Assembly: GCF_003010915.2 (NCBI RefSeq) | Contig: NZ_CP028426.1 | Span: 2,418,001-2,482,000, forward strand | Source of the DNA: Gulosibacter molinativorax | GTDB taxonomy: Bacteria; Actinomycetota; Actinomycetes; Actinomycetales; Microbacteriaceae | DNA length: 64,000 bases | Reading direction: 5' to 3' | Part shown: piece by piece, positions 1 to 8,908 of the stretch | Layout: each line of letters starts with the position of its first letter | Position numbering within the stretch: position 1 is the first letter of the stretch | Notes under the pieces: model-generated | What the model saw: only the letters and a program-made list of their open reading frames with translations | What the model was told of the DNA's origin: nothing | Databases searched by the model: none | Translations under genes and position numbers: made by a program

Positions 1-2004
1 TGCGACACCGCTTAGGTCTTCTTCGACCGTCACGCTCCCGATACGTCCCGCATCCACACCTTCCGGGAACGCCCCTGGATACGCAAAGTATGCGGTCGGC
101 GCGTCTTCGAGTTCCGTTCCGGTGCGAAGCCGCGCCCCCACCGCATCCACCAATTGATCGCGCTCGAGCGCAGCTCCAGAGCCAGCTCTCAGCACGAGCT
201 GATCGCCAGCCTTGGCAAGCTCAGGATGCGGCCAAAACAGTTGCAGGGTGGACATATCTTCGAGGCGCCCATCACGTTCTGTGTAGGAAAGTCGCCGCGA
301 ACGGGGCCGCGCCATCATTTCCTCAGCAGCGGTCAGGCCATCAAACGTCAGCCGGTCGGCCTCGTGACTCAGCAACGATGCAACCGAGGTCGGCGTTGCG
401 GTCCAGGCCGAAAACAGCACTGTCTTGGTGAGCCCCACATCCACCGTCGAGTACACCCGACCCGGCTTCAAGTAGGGCATCGAGGGCGGCAACCACAGCA
501 GCTTCCACATGCCCTCGCCAATGGTGCGATCCGCGAGCGCCCGGAGCTTGCCGTTTCCGAAGTCGATCGGCTCGTACGCCTTGATCCCTGCCGCATCCAA
601 CGATTGCGTCGCACCCAGCGCGCGCTCAAGTTCTTCCGGACGCGACTCCTGCGCTTCTTTCAGTTTGGCACCGATCCGATAGTTCTCCATAAAGTTCACG
701 AAGTACGGGATGGATTTCCAATACTCGATGCTCAGCGGCGAACGGAGGATCTCCGCGAGTTCGCGCAGATGCACTGCCCCGACGAGGTCGCCCGAGCTCG
801 GCACTGGAACGTCCGGGCGGATAACCCGCACGAGATCATCCTTCTCGCTCAGCCGCGGCCGCTCGCTGCGCGACATCACCGGCAGCAAGATCTCTCGCAC
901 CCGTGAAGCCTCCGCAGCTCCGCGTTCGCCTCGACTCAGCGCATGACGATACGACTCGAGCGCACGCTGAAGCCCCTCGCCGACCTCCGCGCGGCCACCC
1001 GACAAGAAGTTGACCGTCGCAAGAAAGTCGCGGTAGTGGTCGTCCTCATCGTTGCCATTGGTGAACGGCTTATACGGCGTCGCCGAGAGCAGGAGCACCT
1101 TCGCGTTCCCGTATTCGAATAGCGAGTGGGCGAGTTCCGCCGCATCGCCCGACTCGGCATTGAGTAGATGGCGAAAGCGTTGGAACTCATCCAGGATCAC
1201 GAGGTCCGGTTCGAGCGTCTCGACGCCCGCGTGCGCCAGCGCCTGCCGCATGCGAGCGATCAGATCCTGTGCCTGATGCCAGGCAGTACCTTCGAGCGTC
1301 GCGCCTGGCTCGAGGTGCGCATCCCGGAGCGAGAGAAAACGCTCTGCGGTGCCATCCGCGCGAATCAGATCCGCGAATTTCCCCGCAATCACGGGGTCGA
1401 GTCCGTCAACGACCGAGCGGCGCATCCCCTCGACATGCACCGAGCCGAACCGATCGACCGAGCTGACCTGGCCCTGCAACAGGATGCGCGTGGCACGCCG
1501 CTGCGATTCGTCACGGTTAAAGAGGCCATCGAGTAACAGCGTGATGAGCGCGCGTTCGGGCGCTGCACCCGCGCGATGACCGCCTTCACTGAAGGAAGTA
1601 CCCGGCGTGAATGAAATGAGATTGACCTTCTTGCCCGGGCCCTTGGAAGGCTCGGAGAGTCTTTGCGATTCCTTCGCGAGCATCGTGAGGCGGGATGCGA
1701 ACCCCAGGTGGTCATCTCCGGTCACGTTGAGCCGACGCAAGTTTTGGGTCGCGAGGTCGGCGTTGCTGCAGACGTACACGATGTCGATGCGATCGACACT
1801 ATCGTCGCTCTCGAGGTGGTCGATCGCGCGCGCGATGAGGCCTTTCGCGACGATGCTCTTGCCGAGCCCGGTCTCATCCGCGACGAGAAAGCGACCGGAG
1901 CCTCCGGCCGTGCCATAGAACTGCTCGAACACGTGGTCGACGGTGGCGCGCTGGAAGCCCTTGAGTGATCGCATCACCGCATTGACATCGACGCTGCTAG
2001 TCAT
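1..2004 (-). CDS. SF2 (SNF2/DEAD-like) helicase, C-terminus beyond window
   Basis: An open frame runs from an ATG at 2004 to the left edge without a stop, giving 668 visible residues. Helicase landmarks are clear. A Walker A motif DETGLGKS lies at residues 43-50. A DEAH-like Walker B variant, LDEFQRF, is encoded near 1190. Motif III, LLLSATPY, is encoded near 1075-1110. Superfamily 2 helicases use these to couple ATP hydrolysis to movement on nucleic acid. The start overlaps the stop of the upstream phospholipase-D-fold gene by 8 nt (ATGACTAG), so the two are almost certainly translationally coupled. The second RecA lobe should lie in the part I read as far as the edge or beyond it. I infer an antiviral role from the neighbours; no named system is asserted. 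Confidence 0.85.
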   Translation of the reverse strand, partial: MTSSVDVNAVMRSLKGFQRATVDHVFEQFYGTAGGSGRFLVADETGLGKSIVAKGLIARAIDHLESDDSVDRIDIVYVCSNADLATQNLRRLNVTGDDHLGFASRLTMLAKESQRLSEPSKGPGKKVNLISFTPGTSFSEGGHRAGAAPERALITLLLDGLFNRDESQRRATRILLQGQVSSVDRFGSVHVEGMRRSVVDGLDPVIAGKFADLIRADGTAERFLSLRDAHLEPGATLEGTAWHQAQDLIARMRQALAHAGVETLEPDLVILDEFQRFRHLLNAESGDAAELAHSLFEYGNAKVLLLSATPYKPFTNGNDEDDHYRDFLATVNFLSGGRAEVGEGLQRALESYRHALSRGERGAAEASRVREILLPVMSRSERPRLSEKDDLVRVIRPDVPVPSSGDLVGAVHLRELAEILRSPLSIEYWKSIPYFVNFMENYRIGAKLKEAQESRPEELERALGATQSLDAAGIKAYEPIDFGNGKLRALADRTIGEGMWKLLWLPPSMPYLKPGRVYSTVDVGLTKTVLFSAWTATPTSVASLLSHEADRLTFDGLTAAEEMMARPRSRRLSYTERDGRLEDMSTLQLFWPHPELAKAGDQLVLRAGSGAALERDQLVDAVGARLRTGTELEDAPTAYFAYPGAFPEGVDAGRIGSVTVEEDLSGVA

Positions 2005-3886
2005 CAGTCTCACGTCCCCGCAACTTGAGATGGGCCGCCCACACCGCGTCCCATAGAGGTTCGAAGCCCTCGGGTAGGACAGATTGCTCGGACGTTGGTG
2101 GTTCAGACGTCACCGTTTCGTCCGGCGATTGCGCGTCGCCGGAACAAACCACGTCCCGCTCCCGCCGGAGGAACTCGATGATTCGTTGTGCCTCTTCGAT
2201 CCCGCTGGATCCGCGGCCGAGCGCGCGCACAAGCGCCTCGAACAGCCCCGAAGTTGCTTGGCCATCGCTCGCGAATGCGCCCCACATCCCGCCGCCCGTC
2301 TTCGTGGCCTCGAAGCGCATCCCGGAAAGTTCGAGCAGCAGCGTGAGCAGCCGCACGAACGCTTGCGGGTCTGCGAGATGCCGCGCGATGACCGCTTCTT
2401 TGCGTTCCTCGACGTCGTCAAGCAGGCGCATCGGGATGATCGTTGACTTCGTGAGGCCGGTCGCTGGATGCGTGCCCACGGCCACGAGAAACGCGGTCAG
2501 GTCCGTGAGGTCAAGCCGTTCAAAGCGAGCGGCGTGGGCCTCGGACGTGCCGAGTTCGGCGACGTCGGTGCCTTTGACCGTGAGGAGATGCCAGCGTATC
2601 CCGATGCCGCGAGATGCGGTGGCCTCAAGAACGTTCGTCAGCCTCGATCCGGCCCACACGAGCTGCGTGAACGGCTCGCCCTCGACGATTCGGCTCGTCA
2701 CAGGCACAATCGCGAGGTCGCGCAACACTGAGTCCAGCTCGTGCTGAGCCTGCTCCCGCTCGTCTTCGACCTCCCCACCTGTCGGTTCAAACTCGGCCTT
2801 CAGCTCGCCGAGCGCCTCGAGCGTCGCGTCTACTCCGTAGATATCGCGACGACCCTCGAACTCGACCATGAACTCGACATTCGTGCCCCAGCCCGCGCCA
2901 GTCGCGTTTGCCGACCCGAGGAGCATCCGCGCACGATGATTAGCGTTAACGATCACCGCCTTCGCGTGCAGTCCCGTAAGTAGGTTTTCTGCCTTCGCGT
3001 CCTCTTCGTCGACCAGATTTGCGGCCTCATCAAGCAGATACGTGTGGAGTTTCGGGTCGAACGCCTCGGGATTCAGGAGCTGCAAGCTGCGTTCCCTCGA
3101 CAGCAAGTGCGTCTCGCCGCTGATGCCCGTACGCAGCCGCTCTAATCCGTCATCGCTGAGAAACGGCGAGATGATGAGGGCTTTCGTGCCGCGAATTTGC
3201 GGTATCGAGGCGTCACCCAGCCCGAATGTATGGAACGCGAGATCGTGTGTGTCGTCTGGCCGTTCCCACTCGACTTCTCCGAACCGTTCGGCAAAGTCGT
3301 GGATGCGCTGGACGCGGTGCTCCGGCATCCGGTTCACGCAGAAGTCTGGCAGCGCGCGGATGAGCCGCTGGATGGGTTCATTGCGCGCCCTGGCCGCAGC
3401 ACGCCGCTCAAGAGCGCTCTCGTCCGATGGTTCGCCCGCGGCCGCCGCCGGCTTCCCGTCGAGTCGCACGACGATGTCCCAGCTCTTGTCCGCAGTGAGG
3501 TTCCTACTCGACGACACGAGCCGGAAGCTACGCTCCGCATCCCGCGCGAACTCAAGCAGCCACACCTTGGGATGGAAAATCCCGCGGTGCAGGGCGACCG
3601 GGTGGATCCCGCCCTCAAGGTAGGTAACGAGATCAGTCTCGCGGCCCAGCGAAATGACTCCTGCTTGCGCAAACACATCGATGGAATCGGCGGCCTGACG
3701 GATCGCAGTGAAGATTGAAACCGGATCGTTGTGGTCGCCAAGCCTTCGCGAGCTGAATGAGAGTGGCACCGCGAGCGCTGACACGAGGTCGAGCGTGAAA
3801 GTCGTCCCGACCGCCTGCACAAGCCGGAATCCTGGGGGTGGTTGGAGCTGCTCGGTAAAGGCTGCGCGATTCTGTGGCTCAAGCAT
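1997..3886 (-). CDS. Phospholipase D-fold (HxK) protein, putative defence nuclease
   Basis: The protein is 629 aa and carries two PLD-type HxK sites. The first is FHPKVWLL (H105, K107), followed by SSSRN. The second is LHAKAVIV (H307, K309), followed by GSANATG. Paired HKD-like sites make one active centre in the PLD superfamily, which includes nucleases such as those in defence systems. An upstream in-frame ATG at 3928 exists. I prefer the ATG at 3886 because it overlaps the DUF6361 stop by 8 nt (ATGCTTGA), copying the 8-nt overlap at the other end with the helicase, and because GGGAC lies just upstream. It is the middle gene of a three-gene operon. Substrate specificity (DNA, RNA or lipid) cannot be read from sequence; nuclease activity is inferred. 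Confidence 0.85.
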   Translation of the reverse strand: MLEPQNRAAFTEQLQPPPGFRLVQAVGTTFTLDLVSALAVPLSFSSRRLGDHNDPVSIFTAIRQAADSIDVFAQAGVISLGRETDLVTYLEGGIHPVALHRGIFHPKVWLLEFARDAERSFRLVSSSRNLTADKSWDIVVRLDGKPAAAAGEPSDESALERRAAARARNEPIQRLIRALPDFCVNRMPEHRVQRIHDFAERFGEVEWERPDDTHDLAFHTFGLGDASIPQIRGTKALIISPFLSDDGLERLRTGISGETHLLSRERSLQLLNPEAFDPKLHTYLLDEAANLVDEEDAKAENLLTGLHAKAVIVNANHRARMLLGSANATGAGWGTNVEFMVEFEGRRDIYGVDATLEALGELKAEFEPTGGEVEDEREQAQHELDSVLRDLAIVPVTSRIVEGEPFTQLVWAGSRLTNVLEATASRGIGIRWHLLTVKGTDVAELGTSEAHAARFERLDLTDLTAFLVAVGTHPATGLTKSTIIPMRLLDDVEERKEAVIARHLADPQAFVRLLTLLLELSGMRFEATKTGGGMWGAFASDGQATSGLFEALVRALGRGSSGIEEAQRIIEFLRRERDVVCSGDAQSPDETVTSEPPTSEQSVLPEGFEPLWDAVWAAHLKLRGRETDD

Positions 3887-5096
3887 CCGGTGTCCCGATG
3901 GGCCGCTCGAGACCGTCGTGAATGTCACGTAGCAGTACCTGCACTGTCCCCCACCGGAACGCCAGCCGCCCCGCCTGGGATGCGCCGCCCCAGTCCCGAA
4001 GCCGCTTCACGCTGGCATCGATGCGGTAGAGGGAGGGCTTATTCGTGTGCTCGCGGATTCGGATGAGCCGCCTCGCGCCGGTACTGTTTGCAAGGCTCGC
4101 TGGCGGCTCATTGCGGGTGTACTGCAGCCACTCCCGGATGAACGTGGCCGTCCCTGCCCGCACCGGAGTTCCTCGAAGATTCGCAAGCCTCGCGAAGAAG
4201 TCGTCGAGATCCCAACCGAATCGGTCGACCTCGTTTTCGACGTTCTCGGCCCATGCATCCAGCTCGGCGCGGTACTGCTCGACCCTGCCCTCGTGCTGTT
4301 CGAGGTCGAGCGCGTCACACGTCTCGGCGATCTGCAGATTGTAGAGCAGCTGCGCGCCGTGGATGACCGCCGAAAAGGTTTGCGCATGGTCGAGCCAAAC
4401 CCGGGCTTCACCGGTGGCGGAAGCCGCGGCCGGATCGTCCCACGGGAAGCCGCTGTCCTCGGTCGGTCGGTTGTCGAGCAGATGAGCGTAGAGCGCATCC
4501 GGGGCCGCGCTCACTATCCGGTCGCGCAACCACGACGCCTCTGCGTGCGTGAGTGCGAATCCCTCCGGCACGTCGGTTGGAAAACCGCTCGGTGGCGCCG
4601 GCATCTCGGGAGACCACACGGGGGTCGGTTCGGCCTCGCCCTCGACTTCGGTGCGGAGGCGGATGCTGCGCGGCAGGTTGGCCGCGTCGGCCCGGCTCTG
4701 GGTTTCGTCGAGACGGATGCCGTAGAGGCCGAGCGCATTCCAGTACACCGAAGACGGCAGCGCTCTCACTCCGGCTCCTGCTCGGCCACCGATGAGCCCG
4801 TCCTGGTCTTCGCTCTTGCGCAGGGTGTCGATGAACCGGCGTTCGAGCCGCTCGGCCTCCGCACTTGCTTCCCGCTCCCGCTCGACATACTGATAAATCC
4901 ACGGCACGAACAGCAGGTACCTCGCCCGCGTGTGCAGCGTCGATGAACCCGGGAATAGCGCATCGCCGAGCGAATCCCGAACCTGGCCGATGCCGAGCTC
5001 GTCGCGGCTGTCCCGATCCGTAAACAGACTGATGATGTCGCGCATCCGCTGCTGCTCGTCAGCGGATGCGTCTAACCAGGCAATCGTGGAGGGCAT
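3879..5096 (-). CDS. DUF6361 family protein
   Basis: This 405 aa protein begins MPSTIAWLDAS, resembling the DUF6361 N-terminus as I recall it (an MPS-aWLD start followed by an acidic helix). The frame extends upstream to 5264, but the ATG at 5096 gives the family-like start and leaves a promoter region shared with the divergent DUF1016 gene. An LFVPWIYQY segment and several Trp/Arg-rich helices are visible, but no catalytic motif I can name. It is the first gene of the operon with the PLD-fold protein and the helicase. In related genomes I recall such proteins sitting with helicases and PLD proteins, so a sensor or scaffold role in phage defence is plausible, but this is inference. Confidence 0.75.
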   Translation of the reverse strand: MPSTIAWLDASADEQQRMRDIISLFTDRDSRDELGIGQVRDSLGDALFPGSSTLHTRARYLLFVPWIYQYVEREREASAEAERLERRFIDTLRKSEDQDGLIGGRAGAGVRALPSSVYWNALGLYGIRLDETQSRADAANLPRSIRLRTEVEGEAEPTPVWSPEMPAPPSGFPTDVPEGFALTHAEASWLRDRIVSAAPDALYAHLLDNRPTEDSGFPWDDPAAASATGEARVWLDHAQTFSAVIHGAQLLYNLQIAETCDALDLEQHEGRVEQYRAELDAWAENVENEVDRFGWDLDDFFARLANLRGTPVRAGTATFIREWLQYTRNEPPASLANSTGARRLIRIREHTNKPSLYRIDASVKRLRDWGGASQAGRLAFRWGTVQVLLRDIHDGLERPIGTPDA

Positions 5097-5374
5097 GCAA
5101 CTTATTCTTACCGGCACGACCCCTCGGTTCAATTTCGGCCGAGCGCCAGAGTATTCACGAGAATTGCCTAGGACGCCCGGTACCCGTTTGCCGAACCCGT
5201 TTTCCTGCCTGAGACGGAGGTTGCGCGTGGCCATCACGACGTCGGAGGCTCCGCCTATGGTCATGCCATGAGTGAGAAGCCGGTTTCGCTGATCGACCGC
5301 CAGAGGGCTACGGAGAGTGGCTCGCCGAACTGAAGTCTCGTATATTCGCTGCGCAGCAGCGTGCTGCTCTCGTT

Positions 5375-6307
5375 GTGAACACGGAAATGGTCGCGCTCTA
5401 TTGGCAGATCGGCCAGGACATCATTGAGCGTCAGGCACGCCAGGGATGGGGAGCGAAAGTCATCGACCGGCTCGCGCACGACCTGCGGGTGGCATTTCCC
5501 GATGTGCGTGGCATGTCGGCACGGAATCTTCGGTACATGCGGGATTTCGCGAAGGCGTGGCCCGACTTTGAAATTTGGCAGCAGGCTGCTGCCAAATTGC
5601 CCTGGGGACACAACATGGTCCTCATCGACCGGATCAAGGACGCCGAGCGACGGCTGCTTTACGCCACCGCGGCGCTCGAACATGGCTGGTCGAGAAACGC
5701 TCTTGACACGCACATCGATTTGCAATCCATCGAGCGTGCAGGAAAAGCCATCACGAACTTCGAGCGCACGCTTCAGCCCCCTAGCTCCGACCTCGCCCGG
5801 GAATCGTTAAAGGACCCGTACAAGCTTGATTTCCTCGGCCTCGGCGACGATGCCGAGGAAAGGGCTATCGAACAGGGTGTGGTCGACCACCTCACCGAGT
5901 TTCTCGTTGAACTCGGAGTCGGGTTCGCCTATGTGGGCCGTCAAGTACACCTCGAAGTGGGTGGCGACGACTTCTACATCGACTTGCTCTTCTATCATCT
6001 GAAGCTTCGCAGTTACGTAGTCATCGAAATCAAGGGCGGGAAATTCAAGCCGGAGCACCTCGGCCAGCTGAGCTTTTACCTAACCGCTGTGGACGAGACG
6101 CTCAGCCACGAGAGCGATGGCCCAACCATCGGACTGTTGCTGTGCCGGTCAAAGAATGAGGTCGTCGCCGAGTACGCGTTGAAGGACAGTAACCGAGCCC
6201 TCGGTGTCGCCGAGTACGAACTGCTCAGGGCACTACCCGACCCGCTTCAAACCGCGCTACCCACAATCGAGCAGATCGAGCGCGAACTCGGCGGGGTCGA
6301 TGAATGA
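5375..6307 (+). CDS. DUF1016/YhcG-type PD-(D/E)xK nuclease, N-terminus apparently frameshifted
   Basis: From the ATG at 5375 the product is 310 aa. It has a DUF1016 N-domain (MVALYWQIG, GWGAKVIDRL, SARNLRYM, LPWGHN) and a C-terminal PD-(D/E)xK nuclease domain (FYIDLLFYH, then VVIEIKGG). The family sits in restriction and defence islands and usually begins about 30 residues earlier with a Y-W-L-LK-RI helix. That helix (YGEWLAELKSRI) is encoded in the same frame from about 5309, but the frame meets a TGA at 5273 with no usual start codon before it. An ATG at 5268 (MSEKPVSLIDRQ) reads in another frame. The simplest reading is a one-base indel near 5295-5310, which may disable the gene or be a sequence error. 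Confidence 0.75.
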   Translation: MNTEMVALYWQIGQDIIERQARQGWGAKVIDRLAHDLRVAFPDVRGMSARNLRYMRDFAKAWPDFEIWQQAAAKLPWGHNMVLIDRIKDAERRLLYATAALEHGWSRNALDTHIDLQSIERAGKAITNFERTLQPPSSDLARESLKDPYKLDFLGLGDDAEERAIEQGVVDHLTEFLVELGVGFAYVGRQVHLEVGGDDFYIDLLFYHLKLRSYVVIEIKGGKFKPEHLGQLSFYLTAVDETLSHESDGPTIGLLLCRSKNEVVAEYALKDSNRALGVAEYELLRALPDPLQTALPTIEQIERELGGVDE

Positions 6308-6354
6308 TGAGCTGGTTGACTTAACCTTCTCACCCCCACGCAAAGGAGCGGCTC

Positions 6355-6936
6355 ATGGGCAAAGTAGTGATGTACGCATCGGTTTCGGTGGATGGCTTCA
6401 TCGCCGACGACAACGACGATCCCGGGCCGCTCTTCGAGTGGCTCACGAGCGGCGACGTTCCCCTCGACGACGGCGGCGTGCTCAAGGTCTCGCAGGCCTC
6501 GTACGACCACACGCGGGCGTACTGGGATTCGATCGGCGTAACCATCGTCGGCCGCCGTGTGTTCGATTTAACGGATGGCTGGGATGGCACGCCGCCGAGT
6601 GGAATCGATCACGTGGTCGTCGTCACGCATCGTCCACCGCCCGATGGATGGAACCCGGATGCGCCGTTCCACTTCGTCGACGGCGTCGATGCTGCACTGG
6701 CAACAGCGCAGAAGCTCGCGGGCGATCGCATCGTTGAGGCCTCAGCCGGAGACGTCGGCGGTCAGCTATTCGCCGCGGGATACGTCCACGAGGTGCGGAT
6801 GGACGTGGCGCCAGTCGTGTTCGGTTCAGGCAAACGGTTCTTCGGGACCGTCAATGCGCAGCAACTGCTCGAAGATCCCGAAGTGGTTGTTCAAGGCAAT
6901 CGAGTGCTTCACTTGCGATATCCGGTCCGTCATTGA
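6355..6936 (+). CDS. DHFR-fold (RibD C-terminal) family reductase
   Basis: A 193 aa protein of the bifunctional deaminase-reductase C-terminal family. It starts MGKVVMYASVSVDGFIA, where a strand is followed by the S-DG-IA signature. It continues with VTIVGRRVF, VVVTHRPPP and the late GGQLFAAGYVHEVRMDVAPVV segment that lines the NADPH pocket in this family. The start has a good ribosome site (AAGGAG about 8 nt upstream). These stand-alone proteins are common in actinobacteria and their substrates are mostly unknown; they need not be true dihydrofolate reductases. It follows the DUF1016 gene by under 50 bp, but no functional link is evident. Confidence 0.85.
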   Translation: MGKVVMYASVSVDGFIADDNDDPGPLFEWLTSGDVPLDDGGVLKVSQASYDHTRAYWDSIGVTIVGRRVFDLTDGWDGTPPSGIDHVVVVTHRPPPDGWNPDAPFHFVDGVDAALATAQKLAGDRIVEASAGDVGGQLFAAGYVHEVRMDVAPVVFGSGKRFFGTVNAQQLLEDPEVVVQGNRVLHLRYPVRH

Positions 6937-7016
6937 CCCGCGCAAAGAGAATCCACGTAATCTGCGCATTCGTGAATCGGTGAGGAACCACTGAACGCTG
7001 ACCGCTACTCGATCTG

Positions 7017-7685
7017 TCAACCTGCTGAAGTCCCCGCCGCCCGCCCCGCATCATGGATAAGCAGCGCCGCCTGCACCCGGTTCGTCACGCCGAGCTTTTC
7101 GAAGATTCGCCCGAGATGCGTCTTCACCGTCGGCAACGAGAGATACAGCCGTTGCGCGATTTCGGCATTCGTCAGCCCTTCCGCGACCAGCGTGGCGATC
7201 TCCAACTCGCGGGCGCTGAGCGTCGCGACGATCGAAGACGCGGCCGGGGACGGTTCCGCCGCCGCGTTCACCAGCCGCTCGAGCGCCTCCGGCGAAAACG
7301 ACAGGATGCCTGCGGCGGCCTGGAGGATCGTGTCGACAAGTTGAGGCGGAGGCGTGTGCTTGAGCAAGAAGCCCGAAGCCCCGGCCCGCAGCGCCCCGAG
7401 AACGAATTCATCCGTGTCGAACGCCGTCAGCACAACGACAGCGGGCGCATCCGGCTGGCTCCGCACCTGGGCGGTCGCCGCGACGCCGTCGAGAACCGGC
7501 ATCCGAACATCCATCAACACGACGTCCGGTCGCAACTCGCGAGCCATCCGGGCCGCCTCGGCCCCGTTTGTCGCCTCACCGACGATGGAAATGCCCCGGT
7601 TGCCATCGAGCACGAGTCGTAACCCGGCGCGAATCAACGCCTCGTCGTCGGCGAGGATGACCTTTAGTTCTGCCACGGCATCCAT
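7017..7685 (-). CDS. NarL/LuxR-type response regulator
   Basis: This 222 aa protein has an N-terminal receiver domain (LKVILADDEALIRAG, with phosphoacceptor Asp59 in VVLMDVRMP and the late Lys in FLLKHTPP). A C-terminal LuxR helix-turn-helix follows (LSARELEIATLVAEGLTNAEIA, then LPTVKTHLGRI). It overlaps the end of the upstream histidine kinase gene by 22 nt and is its cognate partner. The receiver is phosphorylated by the kinase and the HTH binds DNA as a dimer. Targets are unknown. The divergently transcribed CPBP protease gene across the kinase promoter is the nearest candidate. Confidence 0.92.
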   Translation of the reverse strand: MDAVAELKVILADDEALIRAGLRLVLDGNRGISIVGEATNGAEAARMARELRPDVVLMDVRMPVLDGVAATAQVRSQPDAPAVVVLTAFDTDEFVLGALRAGASGFLLKHTPPPQLVDTILQAAAGILSFSPEALERLVNAAAEPSPAASSIVATLSARELEIATLVAEGLTNAEIAQRLYLSLPTVKTHLGRIFEKLGVTNRVQAALLIHDAGRAAGTSAG

Positions 7686-8908
7686 GCTCGCACGACGAAG
7701 TCGTCGCCCTCCTGACCGGACTCAAACATCCCGCCGACCAAGGCCAGCCGCTCCTGCAACCCCACGAGCCCGACTCCCGCTCCCCGCGCGCGTTCGGCGG
7801 CCCGCCGCATCCTGTTGCGCACCTCAACCCGCACCCCGGTCTCGCGTTCGCCGGCGATCGTCACCGAGATCGGTGAGCCGGGCGCGTGTTTGATCGCATT
7901 CGTCAGCGCCTCCTGCACAACACGGTGAAGGTGCGCGACCGTAGCCGCCGAGAGTTCGCCCACCGGCGGCAGCGCGACGCGCAACTCGACGCTGGCACCG
8001 GCAGTTCGAACTTCGTCGACGAGCGTGGTGATATCGGCGAGGGTCGGGGCTGGATGCGTATCGCTCACGTCGGAGCGCAGGACGTGCAGCGCGGCTCGAA
8101 GTTCCTCCTGTGCATCGTGCACGCCGGCCCGGATGACGCCGACGGCCTCTCGCACCTTCTCCGGTGAGAGGTCGTCTCGGTACTCGAGCGCGCCAGCGTG
8201 GAGGGCGACCAGCGCGAGCTTGTGTGAGACCCCGTCGTGCATCTCGCGGGCGATCCGGGTTCGCTCTTCCTGACGCGCTTCGGATTCGAGCGCGGCTTGG
8301 CCTTGTCGGGCCGCCTCTGCCTCTCGACGCAGTGACGCCAGCAGATCGCGACGACTGCCGAGGTTGAGCCCGAGCAGCATCAAGCTCAACGCTCCGAGGG
8401 CGAAGATGACCAGGATTTCCCACTCGTTGAGCGGCAGCAGCAGCCCTCCCGTGTAATACCCCGCCACGACGGATACCGCGCCGAGAACTGGGATGAACCA
8501 GCCCGGGCGGCCTCGGCCGACCAGCGACACCACTGCCATCGCGGCGGCCGGCAGCGCCGAACCCGCGAGCGCCGAGCACAGGATGATGACAATGCCGACG
8601 ACGAATGCTCGCCGCTCGCGGCGTTCATCAACCTCCCACGTCGGCGGACCGGTGTCGCGGTGCAACACCAGCGGCAAGAGCGCCGTCGCCAGGATGCCGA
8701 AGATCGGCTCGGCCAACCAATAGATCGTCTTGCGCGGCTCGGGAAGGTCGCGGTCGGCTTGAAACCCCCAGAATATCCAGAGCAGCACGAAACCGAGCGC
8801 CGCAACGATGATCATGATCGTGGCTCGGGAGCGAGCGGGCGTGAACTCGATCTGTGTGAGCGGGATGACCGGCGTGGTCTGCTTCGGGCTGGTGGTGTCC
8901 GTCGTCAT
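7664..8908 (-). CDS. Membrane sensor histidine kinase (HisKA_3/DesK-like)
   Basis: A 414 aa kinase. The first ~185 residues hold about five or six membrane segments (TIMIIVAALGFVLLW, IFGILATALLPLVL, AFVVGIVIILCSALAG, ILVIFALGALSLMLLGL). The dimerisation/phosphoacceptor helix (ARQEERTRIAREMHDGVSH, His224) and an HATPase domain (EALTNAIKHAP, GVGLVGLQERLALVGG) follow. The ATG at 8908 was chosen over an upstream ATG at 9082 because the N-terminal extension is basic and unlike the family. It overlaps its response regulator by 22 nt. The short loops suggest sensing within the membrane, as in DesK/LiaS kinases. Confidence 0.9.
   Translation of the reverse strand: MTTDTTSPKQTTPVIPLTQIEFTPARSRATIMIIVAALGFVLLWIFWGFQADRDLPEPRKTIYWLAEPIFGILATALLPLVLHRDTGPPTWEVDERRERRAFVVGIVIILCSALAGSALPAAAMAVVSLVGRGRPGWFIPVLGAVSVVAGYYTGGLLLPLNEWEILVIFALGALSLMLLGLNLGSRRDLLASLRREAEAARQGQAALESEARQEERTRIAREMHDGVSHKLALVALHAGALEYRDDLSPEKVREAVGVIRAGVHDAQEELRAALHVLRSDVSDTHPAPTLADITTLVDEVRTAGASVELRVALPPVGELSAATVAHLHRVVQEALTNAIKHAPGSPISVTIAGERETGVRVEVRNRMRRAAERARGAGVGLVGLQERLALVGGMFESGQEGDDFVVRAWMPWQN

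Follow-up and report, generated by a model that had tools for sequence, protein, structure and literature searches.

Pairing of a PLD-superfamily protein with a helicase is known from the phage-defence system DISARM, in which the PLD protein DrmC accompanies DrmA, DrmB and DrmD, and whose defining set is a DUF1998 protein (DrmB) together with the DrmA helicase. A second system, Azaca, reportedly goes back to Millman et al. 2022, where phage protection by the type system is said to have been shown. A paper on Hachiman counts 'Azaca (ZacC)' among the SF1/SF2-helicase defence systems (PMC12278908), and a review that cites Millman et al. 2022 ascribes a PLD-like domain to it (PMC10952713); passages on Azaca in an actinobacterial survey (PMC10482375) count it among the systems that are enriched in Actinobacteria and whose mechanism is unknown, and those in a 2026 review likewise give the mechanism as unknown (PMC12926258). 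In Druantia III, DruE is described as a helicase that carries two PLD domains at its C terminus (PMC13192584). We analysed 64,000 nucleotides of Gulosibacter molinativorax (contig NZ_CP028426.1, positions 2,418,001 to 2,482,000; hereafter the window), from a genome of 3.50 Mb in 2 contigs, and found that three genes at its start almost certainly constitute a complete, apparently intact copy of Azaca. The features are as follows.

3879..5096, minus strand: zacA, encoding a DUF6361 protein (PF19888) of 405 aa, predicted to be all-helical
1997..3886, minus strand: zacB, encoding a predicted two-lobed PLD-superfamily phosphodiesterase of 629 aa, with half-sites H105/K107/N129 and H307/K309/N327
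1..2004, minus strand: zacC, encoding an SF2 helicase, with 668 N-terminal codons inside the window
3879..3886, minus strand: zacA/zacB stop-start overlap of 8 nt, ATGCTTGA, read from the sequence
1997..2004, minus strand: zacB/zacC stop-start overlap of 8 nt, ATGACTAG, read from the sequence

The window edge truncates zacC; the whole gene, on the same contig (G000:C1:2416879-2420004), encodes 1,041 aa. The start of zacA at 5096 is backed by alignment.

We identify the trio as Azaca because its products match the PADLOC models for ZacA (E 1.3e-131, residues 1-397 of 405), ZacB (4.1e-155) and ZacC (2.2e-189, for the part of the protein inside the window). The locus shares with Azaca all three protein families, adjacent on one strand in the order zacA-zacB-zacC, as well as the PLD-like domain and the SF1/SF2 helicase, with catalytic and ATPase residues intact. 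A first-pass annotation had read these minus-strand genes as DUF6361, a two-site PLD-superfamily protein and an SF2 helicase, and had proposed that they form a phage-defence operon without knowing whether the trio had a name. The three genes are confirmed in the sequence, and their database identity supports a putative defence role; the trio has been named already, so it is not a new system.

The individual proteins bear out this assignment. ZacA matches Pfam DUF6361 at E 5.6e-55, beyond which no domain is recognised in it; it contains residues that are strongly conserved, and its predicted structure is all-helical (pLDDT 90.0, pTM 0.87). Both ZacB half-sites, anticipated as two HxK sites in the first pass, are intact in this copy and invariant in 46/46 sequences. 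Full-length ZacC carries the Pfam domains DEAD and Helicase_C, and Pfam finds no nuclease domain in it. Its motifs GLGK, DEFQ, LSAT, GQEG, D-F-H and QR-x-GR-x-x-R are invariant, or variable only at x, across 68 aligned sequences, namely the window's own and 67 others above 1000 bits without runs of X. There were 69 ZacC matches above that score, and locus L051 was excluded for masking. The 2,578-aa frame that follows zacB in L051 was considered as a fusion and discarded: 1,668 of its residues, from residue 909 on, are masked bases.

The same gene set recurs widely. Scanning of genome contigs yielded 267 confirmed ZacA relatives, the best 80 of which we examined; record titles place them in Actinomycetota, Chloroflexota, Desulfobacterota, Pseudomonadota, Myxococcota, Bacillota and others. 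All three genes lie on one strand in the order zacA-zacB-zacC in 75/80 loci, a count that includes loci with a gene split across frames or cut by a contig end; in nine of these loci the best match for one gene is short or split (L013, L031, L034, L044, L048, L059, L062, L083, L085). In the remaining 5/80 (L036, L057, L075, L078, L084), the contig stops after zacA, inside zacB or directly past it. Co-occurrence of the DUF6361, PLD and helicase genes, which had been put forward as a refutation test, thus holds in 75/75 loci with enough contig. Pairwise distances of ZacA, ZacB and ZacC correlate at 0.950-0.969, against shuffle maxima of 0.074-0.106, with common descent contributing to the correlation; this set of 66 loci comprises the 75 minus the nine short or split loci and L051, plus the window's own.

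The junctions between the genes are less uniform. At zacA/zacB, an overlap of 8 nt is possible in 29/75 loci, 14 nt in 21/75 and 7 nt in 10/75; at zacB/zacC, 4 nt is possible in 52/75 and 8 nt, the length found in this otherwise undistinguished copy, in 14/75. Overlaps of 8 nt at both junctions are possible in 1/75 loci. Equal overlaps are therefore uninformative on stoichiometry, and the earlier suggestion that they mark a fixed-stoichiometry complex is not borne out.

DISARM offers an analogy to this locus, in that a PLD protein stands beside a helicase, as was noted in the first pass. Membership is rejected: Pfam finds no DUF1998 domain in any of the three proteins, PADLOC finds no DISARM protein in ten flanking genes, and ZacC, which fits the ZacC model so well, matches DrmD merely at E 0.042. 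ZacB also differs in carrying two half-sites per chain. Its second HxK stretch matches DrmC models weakly over a short region (E 1.6e-4), and one DrmC model is matched by 34/46 ZacB relatives at E <= 0.01. With Druantia III, Azaca would share the logic of joining a helicase to a PLD nuclease. DruE is a single polypeptide of the YprA family, whereas Azaca has two genes for these parts, plus ZacA; we compared the YprA family with ZacC solely through DUF1998, which is absent from ZacC in Pfam. Of the systems compared here, DruE is the nearest worked example of the proposed Azaca logic, by analogy and not by membership.

We infer that the three Azaca proteins act as one machine. ZacC would load on foreign DNA in an ATP-driven manner, probably at exposed ends or replication intermediates, and then move along or open it. 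ZacB would cut or trim the backbone of the DNA by way of a covalent intermediate on histidine, with its HxK...N half-sites expected to lie opposite one another, as they do in other two-lobed PLD enzymes. ZacA might be a sensor or adaptor that ties the nuclease to the helicase or keeps it inactive until infection; this role, and what is recognised on phage DNA, are the least certain steps. Taken jointly, Azaca membership and a helicase-nuclease mechanism of this kind seem to us a fairly good bet. The six ZacB half-site residues and the conserved, confidently modelled helical ZacA make this mechanism easier to test.

Modelling of ZacB points to a two-lobed fold like those of Tdp1 and PLD3. The Tdp1 family, whose characteristic activity is to clear protein adducts from 3' ends of DNA, likewise has two HxK...N half-sites in a two-lobed PLD fold, a likeness of fold and half-sites alone. 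Tdp1 and PLD3/PLD4 would be fold relatives only: ZacB is 7-14% identical to them, its residues ~380-629 lie outside the matches, and the ZacB sequence profile retrieved no Tdp1 among PDB chains up to E 1. We regard as improbable a more specific scheme in which Azaca attacks phage DNA ends, with ZacC opening them, a Tdp1-like ZacB removing terminal protein or modified groups or resecting, and ZacA, a helical fold without a described relative, sensing a phage-specific end or a bound phage protein.

The locus could also be Azaca and yet work otherwise. ZacB might act on lipid or another small phosphodiester and so put the infected cell out of action, the DNA being sensed by ZacC; this is unlikely, given that the partner of ZacB is a helicase and that the few profile matches of ZacB in the PDB include the putative helicase 7clg (1.9e-5, alone significant), the nuclease NucT (0.34) and the restriction endonuclease 2c1l (0.44), with no lipid enzyme among them. 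Alternatively, ZacB might merely bind while ZacC and ZacA block phage replication or packaging without cutting, as a displacement or roadblock machine. The parts of the Azaca literature available to us contain no enzymatic data, and the function of ZacA is open, both of which leave room for such a machine; the invariance of both ZacB half-sites would be unexpected for a dead enzyme, and we find the idea hard to credit. The helicase-nuclease reading is also preferable to one in which Azaca belongs to a larger defence island with a DUF1016 (YhcG) nuclease as a working part, which is nearly refuted: that gene (5276-6307, plus strand) is indeed divergent beside zacA and matches the PADLOC candidate PDC-S02 at 8.3e-148, but a relative occurs in only 1/80 loci, ~8 kb off (flanks <=10 kb, often shorter), and its 5' end looks frameshifted in this genome.

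The frameshift is suggested because the DUF1016 frame has no ATG, GTG or TTG before GTG 5375 and the upstream ATG 5268 lies in a different frame. We have ruled the gene out as an Azaca partner; with the trio settled as a named system, the corrections to the first-pass annotation concern this gene, rightly placed but not part of the system, and the overlaps. On the zacA side, further genes encode a RibD_C protein, a histidine kinase and its response regulator, and a CAAX-protease-like product; those past the end of zacC code for an AHSA1 protein, a thiolase, an IclR regulator and a CoA transferase. PADLOC found no defence protein in its scan of ten flanking genes, among which a LuxR-type regulator matched CARF models weakly. 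Compared with the window, the trio bears no compositional mark of foreign origin (GC content 63.3-65.8% in its genes and 62.8% in the window).

From the neighbour families that recur across loci, we hand-picked nine representatives. Five of them resemble defence proteins (DrmD-like, type I restriction and methylase, Mokosh-like, type IV restriction). Another two, possibly ordinary, fit models of helicases or nucleases, and the last two match nothing. In L065, a 1,807-aa frame upstream of Azaca (3373-8793) joins AAA_11/AAA_12 helicase parts to an MTES_1575 restriction-nuclease domain, and relatives of it lie near Azaca in 4 loci. A ~600-aa frame recurs just upstream of zacA in Blastococcus and Modestobacter, at these positions:

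L054, 8211-10001
L070, 7824-9998
L074, 428-2230
L076, 8115-10001
L077, 8142-10001

The L054 frame, the sole one scanned, has no PADLOC or Pfam match; the family is possibly an extra, lineage-specific partner.

DUF6361 is found in 3/60 relatives and, at the level of the phylum, in 8/296 genomes; the genome that holds the window is counted in both. Among the seven other phylum genomes, wider stretches show the full trio in three (L115, L116, L117), L087 has zacA and zacB in a short stretch, and L090 is cut at a contig end. Two carry DUF6361 fragments (L113, 8093-8920; L114, 8505-8780) that cover 158 and 76 of 399 model positions, with no zacB or zacC in 18 kb, and are probably decayed Azaca copies. 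The operon of a same-genus genome (G007) aligns to the window at 66-72% DNA identity. The 20 kb compared contain a single further match, a malic-enzyme gene. In G007 it lies ~2 kb past the zacC end of the operon, whereas in the window it is on the opposite side, ~20 kb from the trio; the immediate flanks of the two operons therefore differ. No clear syntenic empty site emerged when the flanking genes were looked for in relatives.

On plasmids, a ZacA relative occurs in 43/72,556 records, 19 of them from Cronobacter. In the one plasmid inspected, NZ_CP101592.1 from Cronobacter (L119, 8933-16189), the record itself lists the same trio, and a gene for a tyrosine recombinase/integrase sits immediately upstream of zacABC, an arrangement that suggests a small mobile unit. 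Among viral contigs, 25 stretches fit a pattern and none was confirmed as a relative. Across 50,697 phage records, one scaffold carries all three genes: MT835621.1 (L120, 11950-18269), an unverified 'Bacteriophage sp.' from human faeces with a distant but full zacA-zacB-zacC, possibly carried as cargo by a phage, possibly a bacterial piece that was misassigned.
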